Source: Burkholderiales bacterium
GTDB taxonomy: Bacteria > Pseudomonadota > Gammaproteobacteria > Burkholderiales > Usitatibacteraceae
Assembly: GCA_025360815.1 (NCBI GenBank)
Contig: JANYBL010000018.1
Location: forward strand, 1 to 64,000
Direction: 5' to 3'
Length of the DNA stretch: 64,000 bases
Shown here one piece after another: positions 5,582-54,998 of the stretch (the stretch's first letter is position 1; each line of letters opens with the position of its first letter). A program made the position numbers and the translations under genes. Below the pieces are notes generated by a model that did not search any database, was not told the origin of the DNA, and saw only the letters and a program-made list of their open reading frames with translations.

Positions 5582-8041
5582 CTAACCACCATATGGCACC
5601 CAAACATTTTTCACTTGCGTGGCTTCGCGCAGTATATCTTCCGTCATCGGTAATGCGCCGTTGGCTGGCAGCATCCAGGTGCGTTTCATATTGCTAGCGC
5701 TTTGTTTTTGCACCGCTGTTTGGCCATCAATTGATCCCGCATACCATATCGCATCGACATCATCATGCTCGGCTAATGTCTTGGCCAGTTCGTCACGATC
5801 ACCAGTGACAATATTGATCGTGCCGTGCGGAACATCGGAGGTTTCGAGCACTTGATAGAGATCGGTGACGCTTAACGGATGCTTAGGCGATGGTGTGACG
5901 ACGAGCACATTACCCATGGCGAATGCGGTTGCGGCAAAGCTACAAAACGCTAGCAGCGGCTGATCGTCGGGCAGCGCAATGGCCATCACGCCGATTGGTT
6001 CTGGCATGGCTAAGGTGACGTTGCGGATGGGGGTTTGATGGATAGCGCCGTCGTATTTATCGGCCCAGGCGGCGGCGGTGAATAGTGCTGAGATGCTGGC
6101 TTCGACTTCGGCCGCAGCAACGCTGGAATTAACGCCCGTTTGTTGGGTGATGCGTTTGGCAAATTCACCCGCTCGTGCGCTTAAGTTTTCGGCCATGAAA
6201 TAAATAATTTGCGCACGGTTGTGGCCGGTGGCTTTTTGCCAACTGTTTGCCGCCGCGCGGGCGGCCTCGACGGCGTTGCGGATATCTTTGCGATTGCCGC
6301 GGCCAACCTCGCCAATGAGCTGTCTATTGTTTAAACCCGCGCCAAAAATATTGACTGATAAGCCGCCATCAGGCCGCGCTTGCTTGCCAGCGATAAACAT
6401 TTTTGCGGTGCGATCAATGGCGGTATTGGAAATATAAACACTAGCATTGGCGGGCTTCTTCGCGCTTTTTTGGCTTGAAATTGTCTCTGCGCCTAGGGTT
6501 TTACCTTTTTTAGCTATGGAAGCAACTCCGACATAACCCTCCCCGCCTGTCCCCACATTCTTCACCCGTTTCAGATATTCATACAAGCCTTCTTTCCCGC
6601 CTTCGCGCCCAAACCCGGACTCGCGATAGCCGCCAAAGCCTGCGGCAGCATCGAGTAAATTGGTGGAGTTGATCCACACAATGCCCGCCTTTATCTGTGT
6701 GGCGATGTCGAGTGCGAGGTTGATATCTTCACTCCAAATCGTCGCGGCCAAGCCGTAGCGGGTGTTGTTGGCGAGCTTCACCGCTTCTTCCGGCGTGCGG
6801 AAGGTCATCGCGGCCAACACGGGGCCAAAAATTTCTTCTTGAATCACGCTTGATGACGGGCTGCAATTGGTGAGCACGGTGGGCGGATAAAAATTACCTC
6901 GCGCGGGCACATTGGCAACTGTTGCCCAAGACGGCTGCATGAGTGTTGCGCCCTCTTCTACGCCGCGCGCAACTTTCTCTTGAATTTGCTTGAGCTGCGA
7001 TGGATTTACAATCGCACCGATGTCGATGGCCTTATCGAGCGGATCGCCGACGCGCAATTTTTCCATCCGTGCGCGGAGCTTTTTGAACATCTTTTCAGCC
7101 ACGCCTTCTTGAACGAGCAGGCGCGAACCCGCGCAACAGACTTGGCCTTGGTTGAACCAAATCGCATCGACGATGCCTTCAACAGCGGAATCTAAATCAG
7201 CATCGTCAAATACCACGAATGGCGATTTACCGCCAAGTTCCAACGACAATTTTTTGCCCGTTCCCGCAGTGGCACGACGGATAATACGACCAACTTCAGT
7301 AGAACCTGTGAAGGCAATTTTATCAATATCGGTATGCTCAACAATCGCCGCACCCGTTCGGCCATCGCCGGTGACGATGTTTACGACCCCCGGTGGAAGT
7401 CCTACTGAATTACATATTTCCGCAAACAATAATGCGGTGAGTGAGGTTAATTCAGCAGGCTTTAAAACGACGGTATTGCCCATCGCAATGGCGGGTGCGA
7501 TTTTCCATGAGAGCATCAGCAGCGGAAAATTCCACGGAATAATTTGTCCGATCACGCCAAGCGATTGATGATTCGGTAACTCAGATTCCTGCAACTGCGC
7601 CCAGCCGGCGTGGTGATAAAAGTGACGTGCGACAAGCGGAATATCGATGTCGCGCGTTTCACGGATCGGTTTGCCGTTATCGAGCGTTTCCAGCACCGCA
7701 AACAAGCGCGAATGTTTTTGGATTTGGCGGGCAATGGCATAGAGGTAACGTGCACGAAGAGAGCCAGGGGTTTCACGCCAAGCGGGGTAGGCTTTGCGGG
7801 CGGCTTTGACGGCATCGTCTACGTCGCGTTTATTGGCTTGCGCAATCCGGGCGAGCTTTTTATTGGTGGCGGGATTGTTAGTATCGAAATATTCTTTGGA
7901 TTGTGGTTCGCGGAATTTGCCGTTGATGAAGATGCCGAATTTGGCGTCGTGCTCGGCGATCCAATCGAGAGCGGGGGTGGCGGCTTCGGGGGCGGCGCCG
8001 TAAGTGAGGGATTTTTGTTTTAGGAGTTCGGATAGTTTCAT
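5582..8041 (-). CDS. Two-domain aldehyde dehydrogenase, ALDH16-like (active N-terminal ALDH domain plus C-terminal pseudo-ALDH domain)
   Basis: 819 aa; N-half has LELGGKSPFVVFDDADLD and FNQGQVCCAGSR; C-half ALDH-like but lacks the catalytic-Cys block. Confidence 0.88.
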   Translation of the reverse strand: MKLSELLKQKSLTYGAAPEAATPALDWIAEHDAKFGIFINGKFREPQSKEYFDTNNPATNKKLARIAQANKRDVDDAVKAARKAYPAWRETPGSLRARYLYAIARQIQKHSRLFAVLETLDNGKPIRETRDIDIPLVARHFYHHAGWAQLQESELPNHQSLGVIGQIIPWNFPLLMLSWKIAPAIAMGNTVVLKPAELTSLTALLFAEICNSVGLPPGVVNIVTGDGRTGAAIVEHTDIDKIAFTGSTEVGRIIRRATAGTGKKLSLELGGKSPFVVFDDADLDSAVEGIVDAIWFNQGQVCCAGSRLLVQEGVAEKMFKKLRARMEKLRVGDPLDKAIDIGAIVNPSQLKQIQEKVARGVEEGATLMQPSWATVANVPARGNFYPPTVLTNCSPSSSVIQEEIFGPVLAAMTFRTPEEAVKLANNTRYGLAATIWSEDINLALDIATQIKAGIVWINSTNLLDAAAGFGGYRESGFGREGGKEGLYEYLKRVKNVGTGGEGYVGVASIAKKGKTLGAETISSQKSAKKPANASVYISNTAIDRTAKMFIAGKQARPDGGLSVNIFGAGLNNRQLIGEVGRGNRKDIRNAVEAARAAANSWQKATGHNRAQIIYFMAENLSARAGEFAKRITQQTGVNSSVAAAEVEASISALFTAAAWADKYDGAIHQTPIRNVTLAMPEPIGVMAIALPDDQPLLAFCSFAATAFAMGNVLVVTPSPKHPLSVTDLYQVLETSDVPHGTINIVTGDRDELAKTLAEHDDVDAIWYAGSIDGQTAVQKQSASNMKRTWMLPANGALPMTEDILREATQVKNVWVPYGG

Positions 8042-17160: not shown

Positions 17161-17348
17161 GAAACCTCCTTTTATTTTATGGACAGAGTTTACCGGAACG
17201 CGAGAAGCCCAACCCAAACCGCTTCTGCGCTTTTTTCGATATCACCGTTTTTTGGCTGCTGGCAGTATTGCCCGGCAATGCTAATTTTTTGCCAACGCAA
17301 CGCCAACAACGGCTTGCGTTTTTAGTGCGCGGCCTGCATCATCAAAGC

Positions 17349-17747
17349 ATGATTCGCGGTCTTGCACTTTTACTTATTTTTCAATCCCTCGGTGAGGTCT
17401 TGACGCGCACCATTCACGGTGTGATTCCGGGGCCCGTCATTGGCATGATGTTGCTTCTCGCGTTTCTGGTTCTCCGCAAGCAGATTGCGCCATCGATTGC
17501 GATAGCCGCCGATAGCTTGCTTGCCCATCTTGCGATTTTTTTCATTCCCGCTGCTGTTGGCGTGATGCTTTACGTCGGCACCCTGGCCGACGCGGGCGCA
17601 GCATGGCTGCTGGCAATTGTATTCAGCACCGTTGGTGCGATTGCCGTGACGGCACTCATCATGAAACAGTTCGTCCCGCCAAATGCTAGTACTGGCGAGG
17701 CGTTTGAGGCATCTGCCGGCGCAATAACCCGGGATATTGCCCCATGA
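17349..17747 (+). CDS. lrgA: CidA/LrgA family membrane protein
   Basis: GLALLLIFQSLGEVLTRTIHGVIPGPVIGMMLLLAFLV; start at internal ATG; followed by LrgB with 4-nt overlap. Confidence 0.85.
   Translation: MIRGLALLLIFQSLGEVLTRTIHGVIPGPVIGMMLLLAFLVLRKQIAPSIAIAADSLLAHLAIFFIPAAVGVMLYVGTLADAGAAWLLAIVFSTVGAIAVTALIMKQFVPPNASTGEAFEASAGAITRDIAP
17682..17714 (+). repeat. Dispersed palindromic element, copy B (in frame, lrgA 3' end)
   Basis: AATGCTAGTACTGGCGAGGCGTTTGAGGCATCT; about 26/33 identical to copy D. Confidence 0.7.
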
Positions 17748-40886: not shown

Positions 40887-41762
40887 ATGACACCGTTTCT
40901 GCGCCCTCGCCGCTCCATGCTTTATGTCCCCGGCTGCTTCACTCGCTTTCTAAACAAAGCACGCACGCTTCGCGTTGATTCAGTGATTTTCGATTTGGGC
41001 GATTCGGTACTGGTTGAAAACAAGGAGCTCTCACGCAAGCAGGTGGTTGAGGCCATTTTGACTGGCGGCTACGGACGGCGCGAACGGGTTGTGCGCGTTA
41101 ATAATCTCGACTCACCGTGGGGGTTCGACGATGTCAACGCTGTTGCTAATATTGGTGCCGATGCGATTTTATTCCCTAATATCGAATCCGCTGCCGATGT
41201 GCATGAAGCACTAAAAGTTCTGGACGCAGCGGGCGGTCACAATATGCCAATCATGTTAATGATCGAAAGTCCGCTTGCCGTACTTCGGGCTGAGGAAATC
41301 GCCGCCGCATCGGATCGAATCGCTTGCCTGATTATGGCCACCAGCGATCTCATCACCCAGTTGCATGGCCGCAAGACGCCGGACCGCATTCCCCTGCATT
41401 ACTCCCTCTCGCATGTGCTGCTGGTGGGGCGCGCTTACAAACGCGCGGTGGTCGATGGCATTAGTATCGATATCAAAGACATGCATTCGTTTGAAATGGC
41501 CTGCCGCTTGACGCGCGATTTGGGCTTCGATGGAAAGTCCCTTGTACATCCGAATCAGCTGGCTTATTGCAACGATGCGTTTACGCCAAAATCAACTGAA
41601 ATTGCTTATTCGTACGAGGTGATTGAAGCGCTGGAGCAGGCGCACCGTGAGGGACGTGGCACGATTATGCTGAATGGTCGATTGGTCGAGCAACACCATG
41701 TTGCGGCGGCTAAACGCACCTTGGCATTGGCAGAAATGATTAAGGAACTAGAATCGGCTTGA
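40887..41762 (+). CDS. HpcH/HpaI aldolase / CitE-like CoA ester lyase
   Basis: RPRRSMLYVPGCFTRFLNKARTLRVDSVIFDLGDSV, DAILFPNIESAADV, HPNQLAYCNDAFTP. Confidence 0.9.
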   Translation: MTPFLRPRRSMLYVPGCFTRFLNKARTLRVDSVIFDLGDSVLVENKELSRKQVVEAILTGGYGRRERVVRVNNLDSPWGFDDVNAVANIGADAILFPNIESAADVHEALKVLDAAGGHNMPIMLMIESPLAVLRAEEIAAASDRIACLIMATSDLITQLHGRKTPDRIPLHYSLSHVLLVGRAYKRAVVDGISIDIKDMHSFEMACRLTRDLGFDGKSLVHPNQLAYCNDAFTPKSTEIAYSYEVIEALEQAHREGRGTIMLNGRLVEQHHVAAAKRTLALAEMIKELESA

Positions 41763-41805
41763 CGCCAAAATTGCCGAAATTTGCCGAATCACGCCCAAAC
41801 TTCCT

Positions 41806-42918
41806 ATGAAACCGTCCACCCGACAACCCGCTGGCTATTTTTTTGACGATTACGCCATCGGGCAGACCTTTGCCCATGCCGTGCCGCGCACCATCACATC
41901 GGGAGATTCGGCACTTTATCAGGCACTGATTGGCGCACGAAATCCGCTCCATTGCAGCGAACCCTTTGCGCAGTCGTTGGGCTATCCCTCGGTACCCGTG
42001 GATGATTTGCTGGTGTTTCATATCGCGTTTGGCAAAACTGTTCCCGATATTTCGTACAATGCGGTGGCAAACTTGGGTTACGCCGATTGCCGATTTATCA
42101 AACCCGTATTTATCGGCGACACGCTGCATGCCACAACGAAAATTATTGGCCTAAAAGCAAATAGCAACGGCAAAACTGGCGTCGTTTATGTGCGCTCCGA
42201 TTGCTTTAACCAGCGCGATGAATTGGTGCTGACGTGGGCCCGCTGGGTGATGGTGCACCGGCAGGCTGATGCGTCTCTACCACCAGCAAGCCTCCTGCGA
42301 AACACTAGTACTGGCCTGCCTGTTGAGGCATCTCCGCTTCCGATATTCGATGAATTTGTAGCCCCTGCGCAGCTTGAATCGGCGATTCAATTTCAGTTCT
42401 CCACGGCAGATTCTGGCGTAGTTGAACGAGCCACAGGCGGCACCTTATTTTTCGACGATGTCGCGCTAGATCAACCGATCAAACACCCGGCTGGTATGAC
42501 CATTGACGAGACCGATCACACGCTTGCCACCAAACTCTACCAAAACACTGCTCGCGTGCATTTTGACTCGCACCATATGGAAAACAGCCGCTTTGGCCGC
42601 CGCCTCATTTATGGCGGGCAAATTATCTCGATTTGCCGCTCGCTTGCGTTTGACGGCCTTGAAAATGCGCTGACGGTTGCCGCAATTAACGGCGGCTCAC
42701 ACACTAACCCGACTTTTGCAGGCGATACGCTCTACGCTGTCTCAACACCACGCATGAAATGGCCGCTCAACGCGAACGTTGGCGCGTTGCGTTTACAGTT
42801 GGATGGCTACAAAAATTGTGATCCGAATTTGGCAGAGTTTGTGAATGTGTCTGCTGATCAAAAAGTGTTGTCGCTTGATTTAACTGTCCTCATGCCGCGC
42901 CGTTCCTACTCCACTTGA
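41806..42918 (+). CDS. Double-hotdog MaoC-family hydratase (mesaconyl-CoA hydratase-like)
   Basis: 370 aa with two MaoC-like halves (YFFDDYAIGQTFAHAVPRTITSGDSALY / HFDSHHMENSRFGRRLIYGGQIISI). Confidence 0.8.
   Translation: MKPSTRQPAGYFFDDYAIGQTFAHAVPRTITSGDSALYQALIGARNPLHCSEPFAQSLGYPSVPVDDLLVFHIAFGKTVPDISYNAVANLGYADCRFIKPVFIGDTLHATTKIIGLKANSNGKTGVVYVRSDCFNQRDELVLTWARWVMVHRQADASLPPASLLRNTSTGLPVEASPLPIFDEFVAPAQLESAIQFQFSTADSGVVERATGGTLFFDDVALDQPIKHPAGMTIDETDHTLATKLYQNTARVHFDSHHMENSRFGRRLIYGGQIISICRSLAFDGLENALTVAAINGGSHTNPTFAGDTLYAVSTPRMKWPLNANVGALRLQLDGYKNCDPNLAEFVNVSADQKVLSLDLTVLMPRRSYST
42301..42333 (+). repeat. Dispersed palindromic element, copy D (in frame, MaoC interdomain linker)
   Basis: AACACTAGTACTGGCCTGCCTGTTGAGGCATCT encoding NTSTGLPVEAS. 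Confidence 0.7.
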
Positions 42919-42921
42919 ATC

Positions 42922-42969
42922 CATTTTTAATTCATTTTTCAACCCACTTTTCAGCCCATTTCTAGGCCA
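42922..42969. repeat. Degenerate 12-bp tandem array (MaoC/CitE intergenic)
   Basis: catttttaattc/atttttcaaccc/acttttcagccc/atttctaggcca. Confidence 0.6.
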
Positions 42970-42974
42970 ACATC

Positions 42975-43964
42975 ATGTCCACAGTCCATCCCAGTACAGC
43001 CCTATTCGTCGGTGAAAAGCCGTTCCCGATCATCCCCAGTTGCGAGCATTTTGCCGGCAACGAAAAATTGATTTTAAAAGCACTGGCGCTGCAAGATACA
43101 ATCGGCCCCGTGTTTGATATCACCTGCGATTGCGAGGACGGCGCACCAGCGGGACAAGAAAAATTGCACGCGGAAATGATCGTCCGTGTGCTTAATTCAG
43201 AAGCCAACAAACACCATATGGCTGGTGCGAGAATTCACGATTTTTCGCATCCGCACTGGCGTGCGGATATTGATATTTTGGTCGGTGGTGCGGGCAAGGT
43301 TTTGCGCTACATTACGATCCCGAAATCGACCTCGTTTGCGGATGCGAGCGAAATGATTGCCTATGTTCGCAACGTCGCGTCTAACCATCCTATTGGCCGT
43401 GAAATACCGATCCATATTTTGGTCGAAACCCATGGTGCGCTGCGAGATATTCAGCAAATTGCGCAGCTGCCGAATATTGAAGTACTCGATTTCGGTCTGA
43501 TGGATTTTGTCTCAGGCCACCACGGCGCAATCCCCGCGGCGGCCATGCGTTCACCGGGCCAGTTTGACCATCGACTGATCGCCCGTGCCAAAGCAGAAAT
43601 GGTTGCTGCCGCGTTAGCCAATGGCATCGTGCCGGCACACAACGTTTGCCTAGATTTAAAGAACGCCGAGGTTGTCAAAAGTGATGCGTCCCGCGCCAGA
43701 AATGAGTTTGGATTCTTGCGTATGTGGTCGATCTATCCCGCGCAAATTCAGCCAATTGTCGATGCGATGAAGCCCGACCACTCGGAAGTTGAGGACGCGG
43801 CGAATATTCTGCTCGCGGCGCAAGCCGTTGACTGGGGTCCGATTCAATACAAAGGTGAATTGCACGACCGCGCAACCTATCGCTACTTTTGGGAGCTACT
43901 ACAAAAGGCGAATGTGACACAGGTTAAAATATCAGGCGAGGCGACGGAAGCGTTTTTTTCTTAA
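42975..43964 (+). CDS. HpcH/HpaI aldolase / CitE-like CoA ester lyase
   Basis: DITCDCEDGAPAGQEKLHAEM, PIHILVETHGALRDI, EVLDFGLMDFVSGHHGAIPAAAMRSPGQFDH, FLRMWSIYPAQI. Confidence 0.88.
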   Translation: MSTVHPSTALFVGEKPFPIIPSCEHFAGNEKLILKALALQDTIGPVFDITCDCEDGAPAGQEKLHAEMIVRVLNSEANKHHMAGARIHDFSHPHWRADIDILVGGAGKVLRYITIPKSTSFADASEMIAYVRNVASNHPIGREIPIHILVETHGALRDIQQIAQLPNIEVLDFGLMDFVSGHHGAIPAAAMRSPGQFDHRLIARAKAEMVAAALANGIVPAHNVCLDLKNAEVVKSDASRARNEFGFLRMWSIYPAQIQPIVDAMKPDHSEVEDAANILLAAQAVDWGPIQYKGELHDRATYRYFWELLQKANVTQVKISGEATEAFFS

Positions 43965-43984
43965 CTTTTTTAGTACTTTCTTTC

Positions 43985-44050
43985 GGCCACTTTTTTCGAC
44001 CGCCTTTTTCGACCGCTTTATTCGACCGTTTTATTCGACCGCTTTCAATC
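43985..44050. repeat. 13-bp tandem array, 5 units, downstream of the citE-like gene
   Basis: GGCCACTTTTTTC/GACCGCCTTTTTC/GACCGCTTTATTC/GACCGTTTTATTC/GACCGCTTTCAATC. Confidence 0.85.
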
Positions 44051-44063
44051 GAAAAGACGATGA

Positions 44064-44111
44064 AACACTAGCACCGGCGGGCATTTTGAAGCAACCATCG
44101 CCTAGACTGCG
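44064..44111. repeat. Dispersed palindromic element, copy E (upstream of prpB)
   Basis: AACACTAGCACCGGCGGGCATTTTGAAGCAACCATCGCCTAGACTGCG. Confidence 0.65.
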
Positions 44112-44340
44112 CAACTGCATCACGGGTTTCGAATGACGCCCTACCGAGTTTAGAAACGAAGCCAGAATTGAGGCAATCCCGTCTTTTGTTGTTGACTGAT
44201 TAAATGCGTGCCAAAGGATTGACAGGGGTTTTCGGTATGTAATTAAAGAGCATCAAGAGTTGACTTCACCGCCAAAGATCTTCGCTCTGTCCCCTTTTCC
44301 CAATAGGGAAACCTAAAATAAACCGCAACCGGAAACTAAT

Positions 44341-45219
44341 ATGACTACCTCCGCAGGCCAAACATTTCGCCAAGCTGTCCTCGATGAATCACCACTTCAA
44401 GTCGTCGGGGCGATCACTGCCTACGCGGCGCGGATGGCCGAACAATCCGGCTTCAAAGCCATCTATTTATCGGGTGGCGGCGTGGCGGCAAATTCACTTG
44501 GCATGCCCGACCTTGGCATCAGCACCATGGAAGATGTGCTCATCGATGCCCGGCGGATCACCGACGTGACCACTGTGCCGCTGATGGTTGATATTGATAC
44601 CGGCTGGGGGGGCGCATTTAACATTGCCCGCACGATTCGCAGCTTTACCAAAGCCGGCGTCGCCGCCGTTCACATGGAAGACCAAGTCGGCACCAAGCGC
44701 TGCGGCCACCGTCCCGGCAAAGAGGTAGTGAGCGTCGAAGAAATGGTCGATCGTGTCAAAGCGGCAGTGGATGCCAAAACCGATTCGCAATTTGTCATCA
44801 TGGCGCGGACAGATGCGCTCGCGGTCGAGGGTTTGAATGCCGCCATTGACCGTGCTTGCGCGTATGTTGAGGCGGGTGCCGATATGATTTTCCCCGAAGC
44901 TATCACCACGCTTGATGAATACCGACAATTCCGCGCGGCCGTCAACGTGCCGATCTTGGCGAATCTGACCGAGTTCGGGTCCACGCCGTTTTTCACGCTT
45001 GATGAGTTACGTTCTGCGAACGTCGATATTGCGCTGTATTGTTGCGGCGCGTATCGCGCCATGAACGCCGCAGCACTCCATTTTTACAAGACATTGCGGA
45101 AAGAAGGCACGCAAAAGAGCGTCGTTCCCACCATGCAAACGCGGGCCGAGCTTTACGAATACTTAAACTATCATTCGTACGAACAAAAGCTCGATGCTTT
45201 GTTTGCTGCCAAGAAATAA
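44341..45219 (+). CDS. prpB: Methylisocitrate lyase
   Basis: [67 protein letters not shown]. Confidence 0.97.
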
Positions 45220-46240: not shown

Positions 46241-46253
46241 ATCTGTTTATAAA

Positions 46254-46320
46254 CTCTAGTCTAGACGAGCGTTTTCAGCCAAATTCTTTCTGAAACGCCC
46301 GCCAATACTAGCGTTTTAAA
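46254..46320. repeat. Dispersed palindromic element, copy F (upstream of prpC), two clear arms
   Basis: CTCTAGTCTAGACGAGCGTTTTCAG-ccaaattcttt-CTGAAACGCCCGCCAATACTAGCGTTTTAAA. Confidence 0.8.
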
Positions 46321-50171: not shown

Positions 50172-50208
50172 TATGGCTGAAAAGCCCCGCCTAGACTAGC
50201 GTTTTAAA
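50172..50208 (-). repeat. Dispersed palindromic element, copy G (half element upstream of frmA)
   Basis: TATGGCTGAAAAGCCCCGCCTAGACTAGCGTTTTAAA; right arm only. Confidence 0.65.
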
Positions 50209-54932: not shown

Positions 54933-54992
54933 ACACGCTAGTATTGGCGGACGTTTTGAGGCAAAAATGGCTGAAATGCCGCTCTGATGCTG
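54933..54992 (+). repeat. Dispersed palindromic element, copy H (hisC-tyrA intergenic)
   Basis: ACACGCTAGTATTGGCGGACGTTTTGAGGCAAAAATGGCTGAAATGCCGCTCTGATGCTG. Confidence 0.75.
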
Positions 54993-54998
54993 ACGTTA

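Follow-up and report, generated by a model that had tools for sequence, protein, structure and literature searches.

The linker between the two halves of a MaoC-type hydratase is encoded in part by a 33-nt segment that recurs at the 3' end of lrgA, and the first-pass annotation of this DNA had taken this segment for a palindromic element inserted in frame, analogous to the Rickettsia palindromic elements (RPEs). RPEs are inserted segments that are absent from orthologues. The locus thus raises the question of whether the segment was inserted as a mobile repeat or arose in place, and of what kind of repeat family it is a member. The window (the whole 64-kb stretch that was analyzed) contains, besides the MaoC and lrgA copies, six more strong places, three of which are 66-bp inverted pairs. 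The host gene and the copies are the following:

41806–42918, plus strand: gene of a MaoC-type double-hotdog hydratase (mesaconyl/methylmalyl-CoA hydratase-like), host of the linker copy, assigned by Pfam and solved homologues
42300–42332 (motif register), plus strand: solo 33-nt unit in the interdomain linker, 27.5 bits, with an orthologous copy in genome G005
17681–17713 (motif register), plus strand: solo unit forming the C-terminal tail of LrgA, NASTGEAFEAS, 40.5 bits
6436–6468, plus strand: unit lying antisense within an 820-aa minus-strand ORF (5582–8041), 35.5 bits
27093–27158, no strand assigned: intergenic inverted pair of 66 bp, its arms scoring 25.1 and 15.1 bits
44063–44095, plus strand: solo unit 3' of a CitE-like gene (42975–43964), position shared in relatives
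46251–46316, no strand assigned: 66-bp inverted pair, intergenic, folding as a hairpin, z −2.9
50172–50204, minus strand: intergenic unit, 36.9 bits, whose second arm is eroded (1.8 bits)
54933–54998, no strand assigned: 66-bp inverted pair that takes up the short gap between two genes

The hydratase ORF encodes 370 aa with the Pfam domains PF01575 and PF19315, and its best solved homologues are 4e3e and 8hgn. The location claimed for the element was borne out: the 33 nt at 42301–42333 are in frame (AAC NCT AGT) and encode NTSTGLPVEAS; residues 165–176 lie between the two hotdog halves. The lrgA copy (17682–17714) is indeed identical to it at 26 of 33 positions, and lies beyond the PF03788 domain by which Pfam confirms LrgA (ORF 17325–17747). 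The hydratase gene belongs to a set at 40887–45219 (CitE-like lyase, MaoC-type hydratase, second CitE-like lyase, PrpB), whose first three genes stand together in all relatives checked and whose PrpB is present in most, and which suggests a C4/C5 dicarboxylyl-CoA pathway. Directly 3' of the CitE-like gene at 42975–43964, just ahead of the unit at 44063, there is a 13-bp tandem array (43976–44045) with 5.3 copies of CTTTTTTCGACCG. The position of the 44063 unit is common to the genomes G003, G008, G010 and, weakly, G004 (four to five species); its orientation is not kept.

Taken singly, the unit is non-palindromic (fold z +1.15), and an eroded right half beside the MaoC copy was considered and rejected with a second-arm score of −55.5; the term palindromic holds for the 66-bp inverted pairs at other sites, not for this copy. 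Measured from RWVM to TG, the linker has 61 aa in our genome, 57 in G005, and 43–47 in most other homologues; G004 has a long linker too, without the element, and the VQAM/FQAM stretch of the linker is also found in homologues without the unit. The unit in G005 occupies the orthologous place in the same frame (L040 1983–2015, 24.7 bits). None of the aligned homologues from 15 repeat-poor members of other genera carries the NTSTGLPVEAS segment, and it was likewise absent from the order-level and public MaoC homologues (the public ones at 46–48%, mostly Methylophilaceae). The observation that the first-pass annotation had named as refuting its reading, a homologue from a repeat-free genome with this linker sequence, was thus not made. 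Linker length, however, changes by many residues within all lineages, so that the alignment does not establish an 11-aa insertion in MaoC and would be compatible with one as well as with none.

The consensus of the solo units is ccAAACnCYAGYACTGGCGcGGCnTTTgAGGCATT; the alignment of 72 copies has a sharp left border at AAAC and a strongly conserved core AAACnCTAGTATTGGCG, to the right of which follow a G-rich and T-rich stretch and then AGGCATT, and a near-palindromic core GCYAGTAYTGGC is contained in the motif. A 17-base pattern searched in the whole genome gave 171 matches with up to three mismatches (85 and 86 on the two strands) vs. 27 in the reversed control, and 67 vs. 1 with up to two mismatches. 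With a profile built from 48 copies (ungapped bit scores), 176 places in 400 kb of sampled genome reached at least 14 bits, while the reversed-sequence control of 400 kb yielded none at this score and a further 200 kb of null sequence a single match in the 16–20 bin. The 3.7-Mb genome holds about 150 well-conserved units, a lower bound as 150 of 3394 candidates were scored, and several hundred are estimated when degenerate ones are included; ten 20-kb stretches between known strong copies contained 16 weaker units, equivalent to 80 per Mb. The census of 147 sampled elements (approximately 400 kb mostly around strong copies together with 200 kb of stretches without them, so biased to strong copies, ORFs being called by a simple codon-usage caller) comprised 74 solo intergenic units, 37 solo units inside ORFs, 26 intergenic pairs and one pair inside an ORF, the remaining elements overlapping ORF ends. 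Solo units dominate, there is an intergenic excess, and about 26% of the sampled copies lie inside genes.

The 37 solo units within ORFs confirm the claim of a dispersed repeat that codes for similar peptides in frame in unrelated proteins. They occur in either orientation, only in stop-free frames that avoid the in-frame TAG, and give the sense-frame peptide N[AT]S[TI]GxAFEA (NxSTGxAFEA), which recurs across hosts, a second sense-frame peptide xTxALAxxLS, and the antisense peptide NASxAAPVLEF. Hosts include ProRS, a GatA-like amidase, LpxK, EarP, a type II secretion C protein, and LrgA. At the site where our GatA reads NASTGGVFQG, the GatA of G004 (L261) has ASKTSPMLEF, which resembles the antisense-type peptide and possibly reflects opposite unit orientations at one site. 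In LpxK (L220 626–1747, residues 180–225), a segment of approximately 30–40 aa with the unit in its middle sets our protein apart from almost all of its relatives, which lack it or have less of it.

Insertion was assessed with homologues of MaoC, ProRS, GatA and LpxK from the genus, the taxonomic family and the order, and with eight more genes from six genus genomes. At the ProRS site the length was kept in 27 homologues, motif-free outgroups included, but for one homologue with a one-residue gap, and EarP, the MidA-like protein, an acetolactate-synthase-like protein (ALS-like) and the L151 ORF were of equal length in genus members with and without the unit. The solved homologues 4f3n and 5nv8 have no 11-aa gap at the site, MidA showing no gap and EarP one of 2 residues, not 11. 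Equal length of the copy-free homologues in these five genes shows that the unit formed by substitution and not by insertion. In unit-free homologues the identity within the 33 nt was mostly lower than in the flanks, the differing bases in our genes were those of the family consensus (e.g., 16 of 17 in ProRS vs. L231), and several orthologues scored in between (9.5, 12.2, 18.3, and 20.3 bits). Judged by these alignments, the intragenic copies in the five testable genes arose by base substitution in tolerant segments of unchanged length. The units of GatA, LpxK, MutS, RlmI, UbiH, BioA, and NnrD lie, as in MaoC, in indel-rich loops, where length does not tell insertion from substitution. Where units were shared, codons of conserved residues were identical in 74 of 92 cases vs. 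1931 of 3885 outside, sums over non-independent comparisons in which the excess is partly built in, as the sites were chosen as matching in both genomes.

Of the proposed in-frame insertion, the frame thus stood, while the insertion did not where it could be examined cleanly, the five genes keeping their length and the MaoC linker being too variable. An RPE-like insertion was rejected for ProRS, EarP, MidA-like, ALS-like, and L151 by their equal-length homologues, which contradict a Rickettsia-like inserted mobile palindrome. The two systems are alike in that a repeat codes for similar peptides, in frame, in unrelated proteins; unlike the RPEs, the clean cases here are unchanged in length, and the unit, which is shorter, forms no palindrome when it stands alone, so that the Rickettsia analogy names the wrong mechanism, at least for the clean cases, and a peptide that would be "added" by an RPE is here "converted" in the testable ones.

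Among close units, 23 of 25 were inverted at exactly +33, which yields the 66-bp pairs; these lie near the 3' ends of genes with A-tract and T-tract flanks (26 intergenic ones in the sample), and some fold very stably. Covariation between the arms of 27 distinct pairs did not exceed that of shuffles, and it follows that the constraint on each arm comes from the motif rather than from pairing. The single units that were folded did no better than shuffles, and the stem positions of solo units showed no covariation. An RNA hairpin or a miniature inverted-repeat element (MITE) under structural constraint was rejected on the lack of covariation in both pairs and solo stems. The 78 solo units looked much as if they had been drawn independently from the column frequencies (nearest neighbor 27.6 vs. 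27.3 of 33); nearest-neighbor identity was slightly above independence (p about 0.01), with few positions weakly linked. There were no near-identical copies among these 78 units, the most similar pair being no more alike than in shuffles.

The motif was present in 13 of 13 genus genomes examined, with species variants (e.g., TTGACG in G003), while 15 members of other genera in the taxonomic family had 0–1 match each and the order was at chance levels. Y1 (IS200/RAYT-type) transposases were found in 12 of the 13 genus genomes; in the remaining one, G006 (85% complete), none was detected, yet it carries a full unit load. A unit-like match lay near 5 of 30 Y1-transposase loci, in full length at one. 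A REPIN/RAYT link was rejected on these grounds, as the units are not tied to Y1 loci. In G003, three Y1 transposase copies on contig C1 (919548, 932816, and 3096877) have identical scores, which suggests recent activity of a RAYT-like gene. Another side observation concerns a 29.1-kb stretch of our contig C45 (2172–31271, L382–L383) that is 99.7% identical to contig C116 of G004 (approximately 25.5–54.6 kb, L380–L381), the two species being otherwise approximately 75–80% identical; on C116 it adjoins the native copy of the region, and it stems either from recent transfer between species or from a contig that is chimeric or contaminated. ComEC was detected in 12 of the 13 genus genomes, which is permissive evidence, as matches were obtained in Escherichia coli too. 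ComEC is common in bacteria that are not known as competent.

We tentatively consider the 33 nt in the hydratase to be a copy of a genus-specific DNA recognition motif, most likely of the uptake type, and not an inserted mobile element, a reading that on the combined analyses we hold at just short of an even chance. In broader terms, the explanation with the best support is a DNA motif recognized by a protein, for uptake or otherwise, that spreads through substitution and biased recombination, and the motif family appears to be unreported as far as the literature was searched. A protein would recognize the motif at the DNA level, most likely as happens with the DNA uptake sequences (DUS) of Neisseriaceae and those of Pasteurellaceae (USS); DNA that carries it would be favored by a type IV pilus competence machinery, and recombination with such DNA would build and keep the motif (molecular drive). 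The 66-bp pairs may double as intrinsic terminators, and the MaoC copy would have no function in the hydratase, being a site of this kind that its disordered linker tolerates.

Known uptake sequences originate through point mutation, insertion playing no part (PMC1939737), number hundreds to thousands of copies (PMC2346458) and, in the case of DUS, were argued to arise in many instances by recombination, their conservation in permissive core regions being linked to it, and to stand as inverted pairs at terminators (PMC2397512). The motif is like DUS in its over-representation on both strands, its permissive intragenic sites, its intergenic inverted pairs near 3' ends, its dialect-like species variation, and the one frame blocked by a stop, as intragenic copies, species dialects and one blocked frame are described for DUS (PMC3630211, PMC2397512). 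It differs in its sequence, in its length (a 17-bp core in 33 nt vs. 10–12), in being more degenerate and approximately tenfold rarer (Neisseria has about 1900 perfect DUS in 2.2 Mb; PMC3630211), and in having pairs of one exact length. With USS it shares the point-mutation origin (PMC1939737, PMC7811141) and a core followed by T-rich segments; the sequence and the taxon are unrelated, and the ORF share is approximately 26% here vs. about 65% of copies in Haemophilus influenzae (PMC1939737). Several features speak against the uptake reading: the exact spacing of the pairs fits a unit that spreads whole; the density is low (approximately 150 strong units in 3.7 Mb); the motif, a 17-bp core in 33 nt, exceeds the known DUS/USS cores in length; nearest-neighbor identity is slightly above independence, with some positions linked; ComEC is widespread; and the codon excess is in part a product of how the sites were chosen.

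A site of a chromosome-organizing or regulatory protein, or a family of bidirectional terminators, unrelated to uptake and with its intragenic copies kept by selection, is a rather unlikely but serious contender. It would explain the DNA-level constraint beyond that of the protein (the excess of identical codons), the near-palindromic core, the A/T-tract pairs by 3' ends, and the position conserved behind the CitE-like gene, points that fit any protein-read motif equally. A quarter of the units, however, are intragenic, on either strand and without regulatory context, and a terminator role accounts for the pairs only, whereas solo units, of which those folded did no better than shuffles, dominate.

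We regard as unlikely a mobile palindromic repeat (REPIN-, MITE- or RPE-like), in which the 66-bp palindrome or its 33-nt half was moved by a transposase and the solo units are half copies. The exact pair length, the intergenic excess, the Y1 transposases in most genus genomes, the slight subfamily structure among units, and the greater length of LpxK, MutS, RlmI, and MaoC at or near the site would all suit it, and REPs within genes are known (PMC3733652). REP/REPIN elements (BIMEs) also have 20–40-nt units, occur as singles and inverted doublets, and are mostly intergenic 3' of genes (PMC3733652). Unlike them, our motif has no GTAG/CGTC tag at the unit end of its consensus, no consistent RAYT link, no arm covariation, no genealogical clustering or near-identical copies, and no change of length in the five genes that align cleanly; few transposase loci lie near units, and G006 is fully loaded. 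That ordinary codons of a disordered linker resemble the motif by chance is very improbable, since the MaoC copy, which is among the weaker family members (local cmsearch over the window 12.9 bits, E 0.008, first 16 positions only), scores far above the null sequences and has an orthologously placed counterpart in G005, read in the same frame.

Uptake sequences have been described from two unrelated families only, as far as the literature was searched, and their origin thus remains a live question. It is conceivable, though we lean somewhat against it, that the motif represents a third, independently evolved class of uptake sequence, beyond those of Neisseriaceae and Pasteurellaceae and in a proteobacterial genus, 33 nt long, with species dialects and spread by uptake-biased recombination, which would shape segments of essential proteins such as ProRS and GatA. 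If this were true, a genus-restricted, longer motif of lower density, together with motif-free sister genera, would make the origin and the molecular drive of uptake sequences directly comparable. Recurrent peptides in unrelated proteins need not imply mobile insertions, and a length check against repeat-free homologues tells insertion from conversion.
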